64,000 bases of DNA from Anaerolineales bacterium (lineage in GTDB: Bacteria; Chloroflexota; Anaerolineae; Anaerolineales; Villigracilaceae): assembly GCA_030680795.1 (NCBI GenBank), contig JAUXUL010000001.1:124001-188000 (forward strand), read 5' to 3'. The translations under genes and the position numbers were made by a program. Positions 50,912-58,530 of the stretch are shown here, piece after piece (the stretch's first letter is position 1; the number at the start of each line of letters is the position of its first letter). The notes beneath the pieces were generated by a model. The model was not told the origin of the DNA. It was given only the letters and a program-made list of their open reading frames with translations, and made no database searches.

Positions 50912-50946
50912 ACATCCCCGCCAAATGGACGGGGATGTTTTCTTTT
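50912..50946 (+). terminator. Terminator after the coiled-coil gene
   Basis: acatccccg (50912-50920) pairs with cggggatgt (50930-50938), then ttttctttt. It ends the coaD transcript, opposite the end of the next minus-strand membrane gene. Confidence 0.9.
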
Positions 50947-51631
50947 ATACGCTTCTTTGCTGGACCGTAAGCCTGCCCGCCCTTTCCCAAACACGGCTCA
51001 CGCTGACGAATATCCCCGCACCCAAAAGCAATAACCCCACCCCAATCCCTGTCATGGACGTGTTGAACGCATCCGCGTAATTCACGCCGTCCCAGGTGTG
51101 TGTTGTGCCCATGCTGTATTGGATGGTAAGCGTGAGCAGGCCAAGCATGATCGCCGCCGCGCCGCCTGCAGGCTGGTTGCTTTTCATATTGCTTTTGGTG
51201 AAATTCACTCCCTGCCAGATGTAGGGAATGCGGAAGAGCAGGAAGATCGCCAGTGTGAGGACGGTGGTGTACACCACCGCATCTACAGGCATGGACTTGC
51301 CGCGTAACATGCGTGACATGTAAATGTGAATTCCACCGACGAGTATGCCAGCGATCAAAGCCTGGATGCTCATCAAATATGAATTGGATGTGCCTCTGAC
51401 GAGTTTGATGGTTGCCCAAATCCCCCAGACGCCAATAGCAACCCCTGCAATGACGAACAGAATATACAACCATTGGAACGGAACCAGCGATGCCATGCTT
51501 TCGTATTTTGTCGGGAAAAGGGCGGCGCACGTAGTGCCGATACCTCCAAGCAAGGTAAACCCACCCGTCAACCCCATCAACACGATGCCGATGAAACGCA
51601 GGAACTTGGCAAAGAAACTGTTTGTGGACAT
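50945..51631 (-). CDS. Membrane protein of the redox cluster (about 6 TM)
   Basis: A 228-residue protein with six helices; no family recognised with certainty. The N-terminal half begins with a GGFTLLGGIGTTCAALFP segment, and a cytosolic loop (RIPYIWQGVNFTKSNMKSN) divides the two halves. The start at 51631 is chosen because the upstream codons are not membrane-like. It lies about 50 bp downstream of the 6-TM gene at 51685, with a perfect 12-bp hairpin between them. It may belong to the redox cluster that begins at 57719 or may be independent. Confidence 0.55.
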   Translation of the reverse strand: MSTNSFFAKFLRFIGIVLMGLTGGFTLLGGIGTTCAALFPTKYESMASLVPFQWLYILFVIAGVAIGVWGIWATIKLVRGTSNSYLMSIQALIAGILVGGIHIYMSRMLRGKSMPVDAVVYTTVLTLAIFLLFRIPYIWQGVNFTKSNMKSNQPAGGAAAIMLGLLTLTIQYSMGTTHTWDGVNYADAFNTSMTGIGVGLLLLGAGIFVSVSRVWERAGRLTVQQRSV

Positions 51632-51653
51632 TGTGTACTCCTTTCGTAGAAAA

Positions 51654-51682
51654 AACAGGTCACGCTTCAAGCGTGACCTGTT
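51654..51682. repeat. 'ggtcacgc..gcgtgacc' palindrome, copy 2
   Basis: aacaggtcacgc (51654-51665), loop ttcaa, gcgtgacctgtt (51671-51682): perfect. Related to the palindrome at 34201-34225. On the minus strand it may act as a weak terminator or stability hairpin between two membrane genes. Confidence 0.75.
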
Positions 51683-51684
51683 TG

Positions 51685-52290
51685 CTAGCCGTATATGAAA
51701 CCTGCCACAAAAAATGCCGTCATCAGCAGGAGCAGAATGGGGAACAACCTCAAAATTATCTCTCTCGATAAGATCGGCTTCCCTGTCTTCAGGAACGAGA
51801 GTAATAGCCCGCCAATGCCGATCAATGCGCCGCCGATGCCGACGAGGGCGAACATGGGTTTCATCTGTCCCTGCATGGAGAGGATGATGGGGAGCAGGAA
51901 TATTGTCATGCCCGCAATGCCGTGAGTGACGGCGATGGTGATGACGGGCAATTTATTCTGCATGGAGATCGAGCGGGTCAATGTCACAGCGAGGAAACTG
52001 ACGATGGTGAAGAGCAGGTAAACGGTCCGAAATGAGGCGAGGTGCTGCCAGACGAGTCCCATGGCGAGGCTGAGCGGGATGATCGTCGAGACGATGACCA
52101 CAATTGGCGAGTCCAGCACATCGAAACCGAGGATAAAGATCAACAGAGCGGCAATCAGCAGAACGCCAAAGCCGATGGTATAGGCGATGATGGGCAGTGC
52201 CGAGAAACCGTCTATGCCGACTGCTACCTGGTAGGATGCGAGCAGGGCGGTGAGAAGGAGAAGGATGCGGTCGCGGGAGGTCATTTTCAT
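51685..52290 (-). CDS. Six-TM membrane protein, paralogue A (redox cluster)
   Basis: A 201-residue protein with six helices, homologous to the protein at 55776-56375. Matching blocks are HGIAGMTIFLLPI versus HGMAGLVIFLGPF and VGIGGALIGIGGLLLSF versus VGIGGVLIGLGGIALAF, with a conserved His at the start of the first. The start ATG overlaps the stop of the heme o synthase-like gene by one base (TAATG), so they are coupled. Family not recognised; a heme-related or assembly role is inferred from the neighbours only. Confidence 0.7.
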   Translation of the reverse strand: MKMTSRDRILLLLTALLASYQVAVGIDGFSALPIIAYTIGFGVLLIAALLIFILGFDVLDSPIVVIVSTIIPLSLAMGLVWQHLASFRTVYLLFTIVSFLAVTLTRSISMQNKLPVITIAVTHGIAGMTIFLLPIILSMQGQMKPMFALVGIGGALIGIGGLLLSFLKTGKPILSREIILRLFPILLLLMTAFFVAGFIYG

Positions 52291-53150
52291 TAAATGACTT
52301 CGATCACTACCAGGATCATTGCGGCGAGCATATAAATGGACGCGTACTTGAACAAACCGAAGTTGACCCGCTCGGAAGGGTTGAATGTAATTGCAACAGC
52401 AAGCATGAGCAAGCCTGCCGAAAGCACTCCGAGCAGGCGCAGGAAGCCCCACGTCATGCCGATGCCGTAGCCAGCGACGACCATCGCCGCCGCCGCCAGC
52501 ACGGATGAAATGGCAATCGTGGCGCGTGTCACTGCCAGGCCATAGGTGGAGGGAAAGGTTGGCACGCAGGCGTCGGCGTAGTCTTTGGCGAATTTCATGC
52601 TGAAGGTCAGGGTGTGGGTGGGAATCCAAAACAGGATACCAAGCGCAAGCGTAATGCCGATCCAATCCACCGCGCCCAGGCCGAGCGCGCGCCCCGCGAG
52701 AATGGGCATCGCGCCCGAAATGCCGCCCCAGAAGATGCTCCATGCCGTGCGGCGTTTGAGCCAGATGCTGTAAACAACAACATCGAAGAACAAGCCCGCG
52801 AAAACGATCAACCCATAGCGCGCGTCCATCGCAACCGCCCAGCCAACGCCGATTAAGGAAAGAATCAAACCAGCGCGCAGGACTTCATTTTCGCTCAACA
52901 GCCCTTTGGATGTGGCGCGTTTTTGTGTGCGTCGCATCTGCGCGTCGATGTCTCGGTCCCACCACATGTTGAGCAAGGTGCTTCCCGCGATGGCGAGGAA
53001 CAGGCTGGCGGACAGATTGAGAATTGCGCCAATGTTAAACACAGGACAGCGCGCGCTCATGTAACCCGCCAATCCCGTTGCAAGCAGCAAGCCCGATTGG
53101 GACGGTTTGGTCAATGACCAGTAATGGCGGAATTTATCTGTGAAGGACAT
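52290..53150 (-). CDS. ctaB: Protoheme IX farnesyltransferase-like (heme o synthase, CtaB/CyoE)
   Basis: UbiA-superfamily prenyltransferase, 286 residues with eight or nine helices. The first Asp-rich motif is NMWWDRDIDAQMRRTQKR, matching the NxxxDxxxD pattern of heme o synthase followed by the R-rich motif. The second half has FAKDYADACVPTFP. Heme o synthase supplies farnesylated heme for heme-copper oxidases. It lies next to an oxidase-like protein and a 6-TM protein. Alternatively it could prenylate another tetrapyrrole or a quinone. It overlaps the downstream 6-TM gene by one base. Confidence 0.8.
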   Translation of the reverse strand: MSFTDKFRHYWSLTKPSQSGLLLATGLAGYMSARCPVFNIGAILNLSASLFLAIAGSTLLNMWWDRDIDAQMRRTQKRATSKGLLSENEVLRAGLILSLIGVGWAVAMDARYGLIVFAGLFFDVVVYSIWLKRRTAWSIFWGGISGAMPILAGRALGLGAVDWIGITLALGILFWIPTHTLTFSMKFAKDYADACVPTFPSTYGLAVTRATIAISSVLAAAAMVVAGYGIGMTWGFLRLLGVLSAGLLMLAVAITFNPSERVNFGLFKYASIYMLAAMILVVIEVI

Positions 53151-53233
53151 GTGCTGCTCCTAAGGTGAGGTGAACAGGGAAACAAGGTCAGGCGGCAAGT
53201 ATACCTTTCCGCTTGTCTGCTTGCACGCCTGTA

Positions 53234-54220
53234 CTACCTCGCACAACGGAATCCCGCGCCAGGACTGACGTAGGTTGGCCCTGCGTTGTTTCGCACCCAG
53301 ATTCTTAGATCCATTTCGTATGTATCTTTCGAGCCGCCGCGCATGTAGCGATAATGCTGCTGATCATAAATGTCTGCTGTCCATTGCCAGACGTTGCCTG
53401 CCATGTCATATAAACCATACGGCGAAGGCGAATCAATCGTTACATAGCCGTCATAGGTTTGTCCATTGTAAAAACCAACAGGCGAAGTGCGCGAACCCAA
53501 GGAACTCATATCTTCAAATGGGTCGCGGCTTGCATAGTAATTGGCGTTGTTGCGCACGATCTCCCCGCCCCAGGGGAAGGGACGGTCGGATCCTGGGCCT
53601 GCCGTAGGACCGCGCGCGGCTTTTTCCCATTCCATTTCTGTCGGCAAACGCCAGCTGTAATAATCGCAATATGCCCGCGAGCCGAACCAGGAGACAACGG
53701 TCATGGGATGATTCTCATAACCATCTTTGACTGTGAATGTCTTGCCATCGAACTCGAGGCGAAGCGCTGGGTCATTCAACGGGATGAGCATCCAATCTCC
53801 CGCCTCGATTCTTTCCTCGTGCTTGCCTCCGTTATACTCATCGCCTGGGTAAAAGCCGACAATTTTTTCTCCGTCAACTTTTACTATCCCATTGGCGAGG
53901 GAGGCGTTCAAAAATTCCGCATATTGACTTGTGGTGACGGGATAGGTCATCATCTCGTAGTCGTGGTCAATCACGGCTTCTTTATTATGCTGACCATGAA
54001 CAAATTCACCCGCAGGGATGAACGACCATTGACTCGTGTCTGCGCCTGTGTCGAAGGCGGGCATCGAAGCGTTCAAATCAACGGGCTGGCAGGATGCCAA
54101 TAGTGCCAATGTCATTGCGAGGGCGAAAGCCCGAAGCAATCTCCCGTTAAAGAGGGGATTGCTTTGTCGGGAAGAGCGCCCTCCTCGCAATGACATAGAA
54201 TAAAAGAGGCGTTTCATCAC
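53234..54220 (-). CDS. FGE-like (SUMF1) lipoprotein with repeat-derived signal peptide
   Basis: A 328-residue lipoprotein with the FGE-sulfatase fold. The domain starts near FIPAGEFVHG and contains MTVVSWFGSRAYCDYYSWRLPTEMEWEKAARG (in part), PYGLYDMAGNVWQWTADIYD, and MRGGSKDTYEMD, ending GAGFRCAR. The signal region reads LLRAFALAMTLALLASC with Cys44 as lipobox. Residues 9-38 are encoded by a whole copy of the 'cattgcgagg' palindrome (54109-54196), so the repeat supplies much of the signal peptide. The start overlaps the stop of the upstream oxidase-like gene in ATGA. A redox partner role is possible. Confidence 0.8.
   Translation of the reverse strand: MMKRLFYSMSLRGGRSSRQSNPLFNGRLLRAFALAMTLALLASCQPVDLNASMPAFDTGADTSQWSFIPAGEFVHGQHNKEAVIDHDYEMMTYPVTTSQYAEFLNASLANGIVKVDGEKIVGFYPGDEYNGGKHEERIEAGDWMLIPLNDPALRLEFDGKTFTVKDGYENHPMTVVSWFGSRAYCDYYSWRLPTEMEWEKAARGPTAGPGSDRPFPWGGEIVRNNANYYASRDPFEDMSSLGSRTSPVGFYNGQTYDGYVTIDSPSPYGLYDMAGNVWQWTADIYDQQHYRYMRGGSKDTYEMDLRIWVRNNAGPTYVSPGAGFRCAR
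54109..54196. repeat. Palindromic repeat, 'cattgcgagg' family, copy 6 (inside a coding region)
   Basis: atgtcattgcgag (54109-54121) and cctcgcaatgacat (54183-54196) frame gaagcaatctcc/ggattgctttgtcgg arms. It is the only complete copy lying within a gene. Confidence 0.9.
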
Positions 54221-55683
54221 TTCACCTCCTGCGAAAGCTCGTGATCTATTTCTTCCGTCCAGCGGCCCTGCTTTTTGAACAAGTCTGATAAGCGCCAGAT
54301 CATCAACATGGCAAGGATGACCAACAGCATGCCAAGTCCGAGGTCGGCCAGGATCATCAAAGTGTTGACCAGCGGTTGCTGTTCGGCTTCGCTGATGAAA
54401 AGACGTTTGAGTTCAAAGATGGTGACAGATGCAAATGCAATATCTGAAAGAACGAGGATGCCCCAGCCAAACCACTGGCGGACTTTGCCCTTCAAGCCGA
54501 CCATGTCGCCGTAGTACATCAGGATGATGGTGGCAATCAGCGCGGATAAAATGTGCCAGTGACCAGTGAGTGTGATGCGTTCTTCGCGCCAGGGGATGAC
54601 ACGCATGATCTCGTCGAGTTTGACTGCCATAAAAATACCCACGCCGCTGACGGTGAAGTTCATAAAGACCATTTGCCAAAGCGGACCAAACTTGAGCGGG
54701 TCGCTCACGAGCGCTCTTATTTTTTGTCCGATTGTGGGTTTTGTGATGTGCGCTGTGCCCTCGCGGATAAATTTGCCCCAGCCGAAGATAACCAGCATCA
54801 AGGCCGAAAGCATCACTAAAACTGAGCCGACATAAATAATGGTGTGCGCCCAATCCACGATCACAACAGACCAAGCGCCCAATGAAATGACAATCGTGCC
54901 AGTCCACATCAGGTGCATGGAAACAGTATGGAGTTTTCCTTTGAAGTCCAGCCAGCGCCCAACTATGAGGGAGAGCGCAACAGCAATAAGTGTGAGCATG
55001 ATATGCAGGTGACCAATGACCGCATCTTCCAGATATGTTTTATGCGGTTGGCGAATGACATTCTCCGCCAGAAAGACTTCAAAGCCATTGCCGAAATACG
55101 AGCCAGGGATCGCGCCGAACAAAGTGGAGCCAAGTGTCGCGACAGCCATTGTAAAGAAGGCAATGCGTTCCACGCTTACACCTTTTTTCGTGTGGGCATG
55201 GTTTTTGTCTGTGACGTAGTATTCAGGGTTCCAAGGATTCAAAGCCACAGCCAGTATGATGCCTGCGAAAAAAATCAAAGACAAGCCGAATATGTAAAGT
55301 CCATGGAAGGCCCAATTATGCCCGAAGTAGGCAAATCCCATACCGAAGATCATCGCGAAGAGATAACCAACGGTGATGGTCGCGTTAATGGCTGACTTGA
55401 AAAATTCCTTCATCTTCAACAGGCTGGTGATGATGTAGACTTCAATGGAAACAACAGCCATCGCAATCGAATGATACAAAATAATGATGCGTCCTTCGCG
55501 TTCGGCCTGGATCAGCTTCATACCAAGCAGGCGTACGACGACTTCTCTCACGCCTAATTCCGCCATCGGACCTGACAACATACCCCAAACCGCAGTGACC
55601 ATCCCGATCATGGCAATTGCAACGAGGATCAGTCCCTTTGTGGATGTGAAAAGATAATTGAAACGTATTTTTACGAATTGCAT
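54217..55683 (-). CDS. Heme-copper oxidase subunit I-like membrane protein (divergent)
   Basis: A 488-residue protein with 12 or more helices. Candidate heme ligands: His in LYHSIAMAVVS, the His pair in IGHLHIMLTLIAVAL, His in VSMHLMWTG, and the pair in TGHWHILSALIATI. The twin GHxHI patterns recall the HxH helix of oxidase/nitric oxide reductase subunit I, but the standard copper-site His-Tyr and His-His motifs are not seen. So it is a distant relative or a different multi-heme b protein. It overlaps the FGE-like gene and is followed downstream by heme o synthase. No subunit II or III is in the window. Confidence 0.5.
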   Translation of the reverse strand: MQFVKIRFNYLFTSTKGLILVAIAMIGMVTAVWGMLSGPMAELGVREVVVRLLGMKLIQAEREGRIIILYHSIAMAVVSIEVYIITSLLKMKEFFKSAINATITVGYLFAMIFGMGFAYFGHNWAFHGLYIFGLSLIFFAGIILAVALNPWNPEYYVTDKNHAHTKKGVSVERIAFFTMAVATLGSTLFGAIPGSYFGNGFEVFLAENVIRQPHKTYLEDAVIGHLHIMLTLIAVALSLIVGRWLDFKGKLHTVSMHLMWTGTIVISLGAWSVVIVDWAHTIIYVGSVLVMLSALMLVIFGWGKFIREGTAHITKPTIGQKIRALVSDPLKFGPLWQMVFMNFTVSGVGIFMAVKLDEIMRVIPWREERITLTGHWHILSALIATIILMYYGDMVGLKGKVRQWFGWGILVLSDIAFASVTIFELKRLFISEAEQQPLVNTLMILADLGLGMLLVILAMLMIWRLSDLFKKQGRWTEEIDHELSQEVK

Positions 55684-55704
55684 GTGTTTACCTCTTACAC
55701 CAGC

Positions 55705-55770
55705 TACCTTGCCCCTCTCCTAACCCTTCGACAAGCTCAGGACAAGTTTGGGAGAGGGGTTGGGGTGAGG
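55705..55770. repeat. 'cccctctcc' and 'cccttcgacaagctcaggac' repeat mosaic
   Basis: A hairpin made of gcccctctcc and ggagaggggt brackets cccttcgacaagctcaggac (55724-55743). The same repeats occur at 39590 and inside cobS, cobQ and the RodZ-like gene. Confidence 0.7.
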
Positions 55771-55775
55771 GAAAA

Positions 55776-56375
55776 TTATCCCTTCTTCGCAAAACCAATC
55801 GCAAACGCGCCGGTCATGGGGAAGAGCAGGGGAGTGAGGATCAACATGACAAATTCAGGGCTGAAGAACAGCAGTTGCTTGCCGAGTGAAATGAACGCCA
55901 AAGCAATGCCGCCCAAGCCGATCAAAACGCCGCCGATGCCGACCCACCAGAACCCCTTGGGCGCGCCTTTGGCATAGAAGGGTCCGAGGAAGATCACCAG
56001 TCCCGCCATGCCGTGGAACAAAGGCACTGCGATCTTCTTGAGCGTGTCCATGTCGCCGATGCTGGTAATGGCAATTGCAACAAAGCCGATCGCTGCGAAC
56101 CATTTGAAATAAGTCTTCCATTTCGGGAAGTACTCTTCAGCCAGTCCCATCGAAATTCCAAGCGGGATCAGGCTGGCGACGGTCAATACATAGGGCGATG
56201 CCAAGATTCCCAGGCCGAGGAAGATCAGCAAAAGCCCTGAAATCAAAAGCACTGCAAACCCCATCAGATAGTAGATGTTGTGCAGTGCTTTGTTCAGGTT
56301 GTAGCGCTGGTAAAAATACCAACACAAGTAGGCCGCTAACAGGCCCGTGAGCAACAGGAAGATTATGTCTTTCAT
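55776..56375 (-). CDS. Six-TM membrane protein, paralogue B (redox cluster)
   Basis: A 199-residue protein with six helices, clearly related to the protein at 51685-52290. Shared segments are HGMAGLVIFLGPF and VGIGGVLIGLGGIALAF, plus an SLIPLGISMGLA block. It lies directly upstream of the oxidase-like gene, and its start is preceded by two Crp-like sites (56408-56423 and 56440-56455). Having one copy by the oxidase-like gene and another by heme o synthase suggests the family is structural to the system. No known family name. Confidence 0.7.
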   Translation of the reverse strand: MKDIIFLLLTGLLAAYLCWYFYQRYNLNKALHNIYYLMGFAVLLISGLLLIFLGLGILASPYVLTVASLIPLGISMGLAEEYFPKWKTYFKWFAAIGFVAIAITSIGDMDTLKKIAVPLFHGMAGLVIFLGPFYAKGAPKGFWWVGIGGVLIGLGGIALAFISLGKQLLFFSPEFVMLILTPLLFPMTGAFAIGFAKKG

Positions 56376-56407
56376 TTCATTCTCCTTTTGATTAGTATGA
56401 TTGACAA

Positions 56408-56423
56408 TGTGAATTATAGTACA
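56408..56423 (-). promoter_or_regulatory. Crp/Fnr-type operator upstream of the oxidase-like operon
   Basis: tgtgaattatagtaca. The same sequence with two changes stands at 57747-57762. Its centre is 40 bp upstream of the 6-TM gene start. Confidence 0.6.
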
Positions 56424-56439
56424 AACAGAGGTGGAACAC

Positions 56440-56455
56440 TGTAACTTTTATCACA
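56440..56455 (-). promoter_or_regulatory. Second Crp-like site
   Basis: tgtaacttttatcaca, matching the TGTGA-N6-TCACA pattern with one change, 32 bp beyond the first site, about three helical turns. Confidence 0.5.
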
Positions 56456-56515
56456 TTTATTGGAAGAATTCCTTGCTTTTCACGACATAATCCTACTCCG
56501 TTTAATAGATATTCC

Positions 56516-57283
56516 TTATTCCGTCCACCTTTCCCAAATTCCAGGCCAGACAATAATCACAACTAATGCCAAAGAGGCAATTGGTCCCAAAGCGAACAAG
56601 GAGAAACGTCCCAGTTGCTGAGCAGTGACGAAAGCTAGGGGGACACCCACAACCAACTCAGTCGTTCCAGCCACAAGCCCGACGACTCGCATCCAATCTT
56701 TGGGTTTGGTGAGCAATCCGACAGTAATCACAGCCCAACCGAGCATGGCAAACCAGTGCAGACGTTGTACCAGCACAAAGATCGGCGCTCCAGTGGTAAT
56801 AATGCGGCTGGTACTTGATACACCATTCATAAAGCAGAAGATATAGGCAATGCCGGTTAACAAACCCAGCAGGGTGCGGCTCCAGGATATATTTCCAACA
56901 CCTCTCATCAACAGGAAGTAGATAATCAAATAGGGCCAGAAGAGAGGAAAATAGATTGGAGGCAGGCTGGCGGCCATATAAGGCACATTGATAAACCAGC
57001 TTCCCAGCAAAGCCAGCACGATCCCAATGACAGACAATAGGAAGGCCCAGTTCTTTTTGGTGAAGAATCCATACGCGCTGACTGCAAATAAAATGCCTCC
57101 GAGAATGCCGAGATCTGCCATGGCAGGGTGAATGTATTTCAGCAGGATCTCACAGCCCGGCTCCGCGGATTCCGCGCCCATGCCGATTTGATACCACTTG
57201 AGGAAGATGACAAAGTGGCCGATGATGCCCATCAGGGCGCTGACGGTAGCAAGTATTCCTCCGAGAAAATTCTTATCTTTCAT
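56516..57283 (-). CDS. Membrane protein of the redox cluster (about 8 TM)
   Basis: A 255-residue protein I cannot assign. About eight helices are visible. A first extracellular loop has SAEPGCEILLKYIHPAMADLG with Cys and His, and later helices contain VLVQRLHWFAMLGW, so His residues lie near membrane surfaces where heme or copper could bind. It starts 28 bp after the Cys-rich lipoprotein gene and is probably cotranscribed with it. Part of the Crp/Fnr-linked cluster. Confidence 0.55.
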   Translation of the reverse strand: MKDKNFLGGILATVSALMGIIGHFVIFLKWYQIGMGAESAEPGCEILLKYIHPAMADLGILGGILFAVSAYGFFTKKNWAFLLSVIGIVLALLGSWFINVPYMAASLPPIYFPLFWPYLIIYFLLMRGVGNISWSRTLLGLLTGIAYIFCFMNGVSSTSRIITTGAPIFVLVQRLHWFAMLGWAVITVGLLTKPKDWMRVVGLVAGTTELVVGVPLAFVTAQQLGRFSLFALGPIASLALVVIIVWPGIWERWTE

Positions 57284-57311
57284 GTTTCATTCTCCTTTAC
57301 AAAATGCCTGA

Positions 57312-57719
57312 TTAGGGTTGTTCGCCAGTATGGCAGGAACACCCGTTGTAATAAGCCGCATCATTGTGATATGCGACGTAAACGACCGTACCCGGTTCAA
57401 TTGAAAGGTTACAACTTTTCAGGAAGAGAGGCTCTCCCTCCCACTTGAAAACCTGAACATCACATGCGACATAGACTATTCCCTTCCAGCTGCCATGGCA
57501 CAGCGGACCTGCTACCACTTTGTTTACTGTTGTCATTTTGCTGTTGATTTCAACCTCGATAGGGGTTGGAGACAGGTCAGGTATGGACGGCGACTTCTCA
57601 AATTCAGAATTGATTAAATAGTGCGGCGTACCAGTTACCGGTGGGCACGTTGGTGCAGATTGACAGGCTGTTAAGAGTAGTGTGATGCTTGCGAACAAGA
57701 GGCAACGGTAATGCTTCAT
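57312..57719 (-). CDS. Cys-rich lipoprotein of the redox cluster
   Basis: A 135-residue lipoprotein. The signal peptide MKHYRCLLFASITLLLTAC has lipobox LTAC. The mature part has five further Cys in the last 65 residues, in PLCHGSWKG, VACDVQVF, KSCNLSIE and the tail YYNGCSCHTGEQP. A CxCH tail is not the CxxCH heme-c motif, but Cys and His together suggest metal or heme binding. It is the first gene of the cluster, divergent from the Crp/Fnr regulator, with a matching operator (57747-57762) in its promoter. Family unknown. Confidence 0.6.
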   Translation of the reverse strand: MKHYRCLLFASITLLLTACQSAPTCPPVTGTPHYLINSEFEKSPSIPDLSPTPIEVEINSKMTTVNKVVAGPLCHGSWKGIVYVACDVQVFKWEGEPLFLKSCNLSIEPGTVVYVAYHNDAAYYNGCSCHTGEQP

Positions 57720-57746
57720 CTTTATCTACGATATAATGTTATTGCA

Positions 57747-57762
57747 TGTGAAATATAGCACA
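57747..57762. promoter_or_regulatory. Crp/Fnr-type operator between the lipoprotein and regulator genes
   Basis: tgtgaaatatagcaca, an imperfect palindrome like TGTGA-N6-TCACA, shared with 56408-56423. It lies between the divergent lipoprotein and regulator starts, next to a tataat at 57732-57737. Confidence 0.65.
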
Positions 57763-57849
57763 AGTTGAGTTGGGTAGTCTTTGCCTTAAAGCAAATCCAG
57801 CCAAGAATTTCTTTGCACTCGTGGATGACTGGATAGAAAGCGTTGATTC

Positions 57850-58530
57850 ATGGACAAAATACAATTGTTCACCCAAGCCAGCATTTTTGCTCATCTTGAT
57901 CAAGATGAAATCAACAGTCTGGTTGAAATGGCGCAAATACGCCATTATTATGCCGGTGAATGGATCGTTCAATATGGAGATGTATGGCCTTTTCTGTTCT
58001 TCATCAAAAGCGGTGAAGTAACAGCACTCAAGGAATCATTTGAGGGCCGCAGTCTGATCCTTACCAGCCTTCGGAATGGCGATGTATTTTGGGGGTTGGC
58101 CTTTTTTATTCAAGATGCACCCATGCCTGCATCCCTCGAGGTTTCAAAGGACAGCGAACTTATGCTTTGGTCTCACGAGAGCATATTACCCCTTCTCTTA
58201 AAGAATGGGCGTTTCTCCTGGGAATTATCCCGCCTGATGATCCAGCGCGTCCAACTGGCAAGCGAAATCGTTGAGAAACTGGCCTTTCAACCAGTAGGCG
58301 GAAGACTGGCTCGTTTGCTTGTTGAGTTCGCTGGAAACACTTCCCAAGGGCCGATCGCTCGCAACCTGACACTTGACGAAATGGCAGCGCGCATTGGGTC
58401 CACTCGAGAGGTGGTTTGTCGTTTTCTACATCGTTTCTCGGATCAGGGGCTGATCGAAATAACTCGTACTGAATTCTCTATTACAAATCGTAAGGGATTG
58501 GAGGATTTTTCCAAACAGGTTAAGGGATAA
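57850..58530 (+). CDS. Crp/Fnr family transcriptional regulator
   Basis: A 226-residue regulator. The N-terminal cyclic-nucleotide-binding-type barrel (about 15-125) has GEWIVQYGDVWPFLFFIKSGEV. The C-terminal winged helix has LTLDEMAARIGSTREVVCRFLHRF as its helix-turn-helix. The four Cys of Fnr are absent, so it is not a classical oxygen-sensing cluster protein. A heme- or NO-responsive Dnr-like role is possible given the neighbours. Its promoter region contains the operator at 57747-57762, and the same site appears before the oxidase-like operon, so it likely controls the whole 56-58 kb cluster and itself. Confidence 0.88.
   Translation: MDKIQLFTQASIFAHLDQDEINSLVEMAQIRHYYAGEWIVQYGDVWPFLFFIKSGEVTALKESFEGRSLILTSLRNGDVFWGLAFFIQDAPMPASLEVSKDSELMLWSHESILPLLLKNGRFSWELSRLMIQRVQLASEIVEKLAFQPVGGRLARLLVEFAGNTSQGPIARNLTLDEMAARIGSTREVVCRFLHRFSDQGLIEITRTEFSITNRKGLEDFSKQVKG

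Follow-up and report, generated by a model that had tools for sequence, protein, structure and literature searches.

To our knowledge, one common set of six histidines identifies the heme-copper oxidase superfamily in all its described members. In the known oxidases and nitric oxide (NO) reductases, CuB or FeB is held by a His of helix VI together with a His pair of helix VII. Heme o or a is found at the active site of the oxygen reductases, and these hemes are used mainly at the high-spin heme site. A heme-copper membrane protein of NO regulons is also known, that is, NnrS (PF05940). The window studied here (the whole 64-kb stretch of DNA, from an Anaerolineales bacterium) carries a gene cluster whose central component is a 488-residue membrane protein, hereafter HCO488, with the predicted fold of these oxidases and without the helix VII pair. 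HCO488 seems to represent an oxidase-fold family without an earlier description, with NO handling as its likeliest role. In accordance with the first-pass annotation of the window, which proposed an undescribed system, no description of the cluster was found in the open-access PMC literature. Sequences and models give solid evidence for the absence of the copper pair, for the fold prediction, for the conservation of the gene cassette and for the link to heme o.

Conventional searches did not place HCO488 in any family. No Pfam or NCBIfam entry matched it at E values up to 1, PF00115 and PF05940 included, and no PDB sequence was matched either by the single sequence (E up to 1) or by a profile of 44 rows, composed of the window protein and those of 43 of 80 collection loci (E up to 10). 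The AlphaFold2 model (mean pLDDT 79.5, pTM 0.85, with values below 50 at residues 347–374) consists of 12 long helices arranged in the fold of heme-copper oxidase subunit I. In the Foldseek search of this model no PDB chain reached an E value up to 0.001, every chain from rank 1 to rank 45 was an oxygen or NO reductase (best E 1.7e-3, TM 0.64) and the first unrelated chain had a probability of only 0.13. The VIA-align comparison gave Z 22.5 to CcoN (8smr_E; 412 aligned residues, rmsd 3.9, 8% identity), 20.6 to ba3 and 20.4 to the cNOR 4xyd, the identity to the structural matches being 7–12%. The profile-profile comparison suggested in the first-pass annotation speaks against this placement, as hhalign of HCO488 with the oxidases was not significant (E 0.03, probability 1.6%; 0.1% with CcoN alone), and it is the suggested structure prediction that brought the similarity forward. 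The hhalign alignment paired helices VI–VIII of HCO488 with helices II–IV of the oxidases, so no residue or ligand mapping was taken from it. Given the low identity and the lack of a significant profile match, the family is therefore remote from the oxidases, with a shared predicted fold.

The residues conserved within the family determine how far the likeness extends. H71, H127, H225, H227, M229 and H280 are present in all 101 rows of the alignment, and H375 and H377 in 100, with one gap. The same histidines are invariant in the separate 44-row alignment, and all seven are kept in two relatives that are 39 and 37% identical. The copy of locus L022 (L022:2713-4173) has an in-frame stop, from decay or assembly error, and was left out of the 44-row alignment. 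In the model, H71 is located in the second membrane helix, H127 in helix IV, the H225-x-H227-x-M229 motif in helix VI, H280 where helix VIII begins and H375/H377 in the tenth helix, all these assignments resting on helix number and not on superposed residues. Thus, of the six defining histidines, HCO488 keeps the helix II His and the helix X H-x-H. The helix VII pair is missing: none of the 101 rows shows His-His within residues 245–290 (helix VII spans 250–271 in the model), in line with the first-pass description of an oxidase-like protein without the standard copper-site motifs. The Glu or Gln four positions after the helix VI His, which marks the NO reductases, is also absent, H225 being followed there by Met229 and H227 by Thr, Ala or Ser at residue 231.

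Three groups of described proteins are the closest for comparison. CcoN, subunit I of the cbb3 oxidases (C family), shares the 12-helix fold, the helix II His and the G-H-x-H of helix X; HCO488 differs in the lack of the helix VII His-His, in the helix VI HxHxM, in having its own CtaB and in the absence of a CcoO or CcoP gene from the window cluster. The NO reductases NorB/cNOR, qNOR and eNOR resemble it in fold, possibly in substrate and, for an eNOR-like class, in co-occurrence. However, the qNOR- and eNOR-like proteins examined keep His-His and have Glu or Gln where HCO488 has Met229. NnrS-like proteins encoded near some relatives of the cluster also show an invariant mid-protein H-x-H (H172, H174), but no further H-x-H is found among their invariant residues and HCO488 has no significant profile match to their alignment.

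On these grounds a heme arrangement can be proposed. His71 and His377 would hold a low-spin heme, and His375 a high-spin heme, which may be heme o made by the cluster's CtaB. The distal site would be rebuilt on helix VI from H225-x-H227-x-M229, perhaps with H280.

Relatives of HCO488 were found in 26 of 61 genomes (the own genome and 60 relatives) and in 13 of 301 genomes sampled evenly across the phylum with the own genome included, two of the 13 being diverged (E 1e-95 and 2e-87). Among 84,980 species genomes, 185 of the 221 candidate places held a relative. Twenty loci from the 61 genomes and the best 80 of the 185 collection places formed a set of 100 loci (loci and genomes of this analysis are labelled L and G, respectively). 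The best 80 are labelled as Anaerolineae, other Chloroflexi, Aminicenantes, Neomarinimicrobiota, Ignavibacteria, Melioribacteraceae, KSB1 and a few others, and their carriers are metagenome-assembled genomes except for the cultured Thermanaerothrix daxensis GNS-1 (L052).

The neighboring genes of the window (table 1) recur with HCO488 across several phyla. At E values up to 1e-4, relatives of the lipoprotein with the fold of formylglycine-generating enzymes (FGE) are near HCO488 in 99 of the 100 loci, of CtaB in 94, of the 7-helix protein in 80, of the 8-helix protein in 57, of the Crp regulator in 47, of the protein at 50945 in 43 and of the Cys-rich lipoprotein in eight. These counts are lower bounds, because L001–L020 have flanks of at most about 1.5 kb per side. 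The usual order is HCO488-FGE-CtaB-7-helix in the maps of 98 loci, several of which show a wrong-frame open reading frame in place of FGE or CtaB owing to the overlap filter. An explanation by chance neighbours and an over-interpreted membrane fold could appeal to the missing sequence-profile similarity to oxidases and to the Foldseek threshold that no chain reached. It is already contradicted by the recurring gene order and by oxidase matches far above the unrelated chains, and is hardly credible. The fold match and the cross-phylum association therefore leave neither of the outcomes that the first-pass annotation had named against its proposal, that is, a known non-heme family or a neighbourhood without conserved association.

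The heme o synthase connects the cassette to oxidase chemistry. The cassette enzymes share family and motifs with CtaB/CyoE, and N61, D65, D69, R74, R78 and H179 are conserved in 0.99–1.00 of 77 rows. The window copy passes TIGR01473 only marginally (210.6 vs 210.3 bits), with the Asp-rich N61-D65-D69 motif intact. It differs from the canonical CtaB in being a separate copy: a second, canonical CtaB of the own genome (C1:121203) lies about 3.5 kb from a caa3-type oxidase gene. The only PF00115 protein of the own genome is Tyr-type.

Among 23 carrier genomes picked regardless of COX1, 11 had no PF00115 match (the completeness of the 11 is not stated). With G049 and G056, already known to lack PF00115, they make 13 carriers, all of which match CtaB strongly (6.2e-61 or better) at a gene located by coordinates in the HCO488 cassette. 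In total these genomes have 14 strong CtaB matches (1.1e-60 or better), all other matches having E 1.3e-14 or worse; the TIGR01473 cut-off is passed in seven of the 13, and six fall just short. Heme o from the cassette thus has no other known client there, and HCO488 is therefore its likely client. The pairing of heme o synthesis with a subunit I-like protein, as first annotated, recurs in 94 of the 100 loci.

Two alternatives have to be considered at this point. HCO488 could be an oxygen reductase or scavenger with an unusual distal metal site, since its top structural matches are oxygen reductases (CcoN and ba3) and such enzymes carry heme o or a at their active site. Yet a Tyr four positions after the His of helix VI is missing, as is the ligand pair of helix VII, 13 carrier genomes show no PF00115 oxidase (bd oxidases were not searched), and some neighbours point to nitrogen oxides and not to O2; this function is judged unlikely. 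The main rival to an NO function is an electron-transfer or proton-translocating cytochrome without the former binuclear centre, relaying electrons among quinol, the 7-helix proteins and a partner of the polyferredoxin kind. The His pair missing from every row, a Met229 that is not acidic, Tyr, Gln or Asn, the lack of a subunit II gene in the window cluster, the NapH-like polyferredoxin near some loci and the single invariant His of each 7-helix protein are all consistent with it. On the other hand, if HCO488 had no high-spin heme site, a heme o synthase dedicated to it would be difficult to account for, and HxHxM is invariant even at 37% identity. A cytochrome of this kind is considered rather improbable, without being negligible.

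Concerning NO, the neighbourhood in G026 (L153) is suggestive. A single stretch contains the cassette, two 8-helix genes, a polyferredoxin, FmdE-like and related membrane genes, three Crp genes facing the cluster, nirS (PF02239 2.7e-127), a cupin gene and, on the other strand, an NnrS-like gene whose product is 47% identical to that of L060. NnrS-like relatives are found near six of the 100 loci and in L154. Across the phylum, a scan of 201 genomes gave NnrS in six (E up to 1e-10), and the own genome has none. The diverged HCO488 relative of G070 adjoins an ODP diiron-type protein (with no flavodoxin part at 1e-4) and a DUF438-hemerythrin-PAS protein, while that of G248 adjoins COX1 and a relative of the same DUF438 protein (54% identity), which has a relative in one of the first 100 loci. 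G017 encodes a qNOR some 9 kb away from its HCO488, and one eNOR-like gene is in a flank of the first 100 loci (L030).

The co-occurrence within the 61 genomes points in the same direction. HCO488 is present in 10 of 12 genomes with NirS and in 16 of the 49 that lack it (uncorrected Fisher p 0.0025, six markers). Within the genus the proportions are 7/7 and 14/30, and in other genera 3/5 and 2/19. When any Nir is counted, the result is 20/37 against 6/24 (p 0.035 overall). A COX1 class of about 580 residues carries the motif GHPAQQ, which resembles the Gln given as diagnostic of eNOR (PMC8756737). According to its genome paper, T. daxensis has NirS and NrfA together with bd and an A-family oxidase; no NO reductase is mentioned there (PMC4653793).

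The regulator may offer a further link. The Crp orthologues (23 rows, the window's included) have no FNR-type Cys cluster, their sole conserved Cys being Cys190 in the helix-turn-helix. Upstream of them, 14 of 23 regions match TTTGC-N6-GCAAA at nine or ten of ten positions, against a mean of 0.44 and a maximum of four matching regions in 200 dinucleotide shuffles; the motif was spotted by inspecting the same regions, so the shuffle test gauges its strength and not its discovery. Exact copies of CTTTGMCTTAANGCAAA number 14 across the 61 genomes and come from 12 of these, every one an HCO488 carrier and some of them contributors to the motif. Thirteen copies are at most 17 kb from HCO488, and the fourteenth, on a different contig of G005, has cluster-type genes next to it. 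At up to one mismatch, CTTTGMCTTAANGCAAA gives a single site in the own genome. The Crp/Fnr protein may control the cluster from this palindrome, whose arms and spacing equal those of the published NnrR motif, ctTTGcgnnnncgCAAag (PMC1274295), with different inner bases.

The local regulator with its own operator-like palindrome also fits a gas sensor or signalling complex, in which heme-o-bearing HCO488 would bind NO, CO or O2 and signal through the FGE-like lipoprotein or Crp. GGDEF genes immediately upstream of the cluster in L095 and L097 and the co-occurrence with matches resembling carbon monoxide dehydrogenase (CODH; 12/17 vs 14/44, p 0.009) are in accordance with such a role. Nevertheless, HCO488 has no Pfam signalling domain, and Crp relatives accompany it far less often than CtaB and FGE do, which makes a sensor quite improbable.

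Several results weigh against an NO function, and the CODH co-occurrence is the first of them. The "CODH" matches are the frames of 668–721 residues in which all but one of the weak TIGR01703 matches of 17 genomes are located, their presumed identity as CO dehydrogenase being drawn from length and superfamily; the hybrid cluster protein itself was over the TIGR01703 cut-off in none of the 61 genomes. The COX1 class of about 580 residues co-occurs with HCO488 as well (p 0.001), and because both co-vary with it, NirS may mark only a respiratory lifestyle. Sixteen of the 26 carriers already possess this eNOR-like class. NirK shows no co-occurrence (15/30 vs 11/31, p 0.31), and any Nir shows no association within the genus (16/28 vs 5/9). 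The NnrS-like proteins of L060 (1.7e-4) and L154 (4e-4) are below the PF05940 cut-off, and the end-cut copy of L153 has no Pfam match at 0.001. No relative of NirS, NirK, qNOR or ODP was found within the flanks examined of the first 100 loci. Regarding the palindrome, CTTTGMCTTAANGCAAA at up to one mismatch gives 41 matches vs 18 for the reversed control. Such sites are therefore near background, including the one in G021, which precedes a Crp gene that has nirS after it. Moreover, the DNA half-site is uninformative on the signal that the Crp protein senses.

Two more specific roles were considered. HCO488 as the missing NO reductase is weakened. Eight of the 20 Nir-positive carriers (G000, G003, G009, G025, G040, G043, G046 and G056) have only Tyr-type full-length COX1 or none, but 13 or 14 of the 17 Nir-positive non-carriers likewise have no NOR-type COX1 (G059 is ambiguous and most motifs are unchecked). 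The lack is not specific to carriers, and the filling of such a gap is thus unsupported. An accessory of nitrous oxide reductase (NosB-like) was rejected, as the own genome has no nosZ over the cut-off, nosZ is present in four of the 61 genomes, with HCO488 in one of the four, and the two do not co-occur. The own genome has a NirK over the cut-off (C8:140332-141222; L200:2303-3709), and the same frame includes a part resembling cytochrome c.

Considering the evidence on both sides, a membrane complex built on HCO488 with an NO function remains a tentative reading, somewhat short of an even chance. Its likeliest job would be NO binding and reduction, or detoxification, under low oxygen. The first-pass annotation left the choice among a new oxidase, NO handling and gas sensing, of which indirect evidence favours NO handling, the other functions being weaker. 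The fuller proposal, a new branch of oxidase-fold enzymes with a helix VI HxHxM site and heme o from its own synthase, acting as NO reductase or detoxifier in several phyla and in some organisms without any other detectable superfamily member, is possible and somewhat doubtful.

The eight genes first annotated in the cluster are all present, in the order given. They form two divergent transcription units, the Crp/Fnr gene on the plus strand and, on the minus strand, the genes from the lipoprotein through a further membrane protein beyond the original limits. The small membrane proteins described as having six helices are indeed polytopic and homologous to each other, but each has seven hydrophobic segments and the model of the first shows seven helices. 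The automatic start of the second, at 52743, is too far upstream, as homology to the first copy begins near 52293. No subunit II gene stands beside HCO488 in the window, as had been noted.

Table 1. Features of the HCO488 cluster in the 64-kb window
Feature	Coordinates	Strand	Evidence or remark
Crp/Fnr-family regulator, no FNR-type Cys cluster	57850..58530	+	PF13545 3.6e-15, PF00027 2.2e-13
Operator-like palindrome TTTGCCTTAAAGCAAA	57780..57795	.	Divergent promoter
Small Cys-rich lipoprotein, variable member	57312..57719	-	Lipobox-like start; PF08139 0.0078, below cut-off
8-helix membrane protein, no conserved His	56516..57283	-	Conservation and hydrophobic segments
7-helix membrane protein, invariant His H121	55776..56375	-	Conservation, hydrophobic segments, model
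HCO488, 488-residue protein of predicted heme-copper oxidase fold, central component	54217..55683	-	Predicted fold and invariant residues
FGE/SUMF1-fold lipoprotein	53234..54220	-	PF03781 6.4e-36; lipobox-type Cys44
Heme o synthase, CtaB-type UbiA prenyltransferase	52290..53150	-	TIGR01473 3.9e-62, 210.6 bits (cut-off 210.3)
Second copy of the 7-helix protein at 55776-56375, with invariant His H124 (numbering from the frame at 52293)	51685..52293	-	
Further conserved membrane protein, invariant R25, C48, H191, N197	50945..51670	-	42 rows; beyond the coordinates of the first-pass annotation

The invariant His of the 7-helix proteins is supported by 65 rows for H121 and 58 for H124, and the two queries cross-match each other in 127 frames. 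The two proteins may pair around a further heme. The model of the first (pLDDT 94.7) resembles G-protein-coupled receptors with a best Z of 13.8, near the level common for helical bundles, and no function was drawn from it. A search against viral structures gave no convincing match (best E 0.69).

Formylglycine-generating enzymes have a catalytic Cys pair after a GGS motif. In the window protein this pair is absent, the sequence reading RGGSKDTYEMDLRIW with no Cys there. The lipobox-type Cys44 is found in 96% of 99 rows, and the conserved Cys outside the lipobox are Cys185 and Cys326 (GFRC). NirV is another FGE-fold protein. By description only, the likeness would lie in an accessory role beside a nitrogen-oxide enzyme, NirV being a companion of NirK (PMC4770552).

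Some loci carry additional genes upstream, that is, 8-helix-type relatives, a NapH-like polyferredoxin (PF12801; 15 of 100), which may deliver electrons in these genomes, and an FmdE-like protein (six of 100). FmdE-like lipoproteins in the extended cluster of L066 (3542-5098) and L153 (11040-12566) apparently have two domain copies, with PF02663 below cut-off. Beside the cluster of L154 (3247-4959, in G043), there is a protein whose start is Tat-like and which matches reductive-dehalogenase and 4Fe-4S profiles weakly, below the cut-offs. A Pfam survey of 103 neighbours (99 hand-picked from 150 of the 439 eligible ones in L021–L100 and four from L137/L138) gave 144 families, the commonest being Fer4_5 (seven), two PAS families (five each) and GGDEF, ABC_tran and TetR_N (three each). 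No NO-specific family is among the 25 listed of the 144.

Other oxidase-like proteins were also encountered. L143 (704-2206), L144 (343-1794) and L146 (2178-3758) encode a second subunit-I-like protein (500, 483 and 526 residues, respectively) with no His-His at all, adjoining a full oxidase or eNOR-like subunit I; another degenerate oxidase family is possible. Frames of about 274 residues with weak two-part PF00115 matches (G017:C2:2696972-2697745, G029:C24:64457-65164 and G018:C17:11646-12344) are perhaps small oxidase-like proteins of two 4-helix units.

A widespread, strongly conserved family with the fold and heme ligands of the oxidases and another distal site would indicate that profile searches miss part of the superfamily. 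For Anaerolineae, Aminicenantes and Neomarinimicrobiota, HCO488 could be a gas-reactive enzyme not yet counted in nitrogen cycling, and the role of heme o in bacteria without a PF00115 oxidase becomes a testable question.

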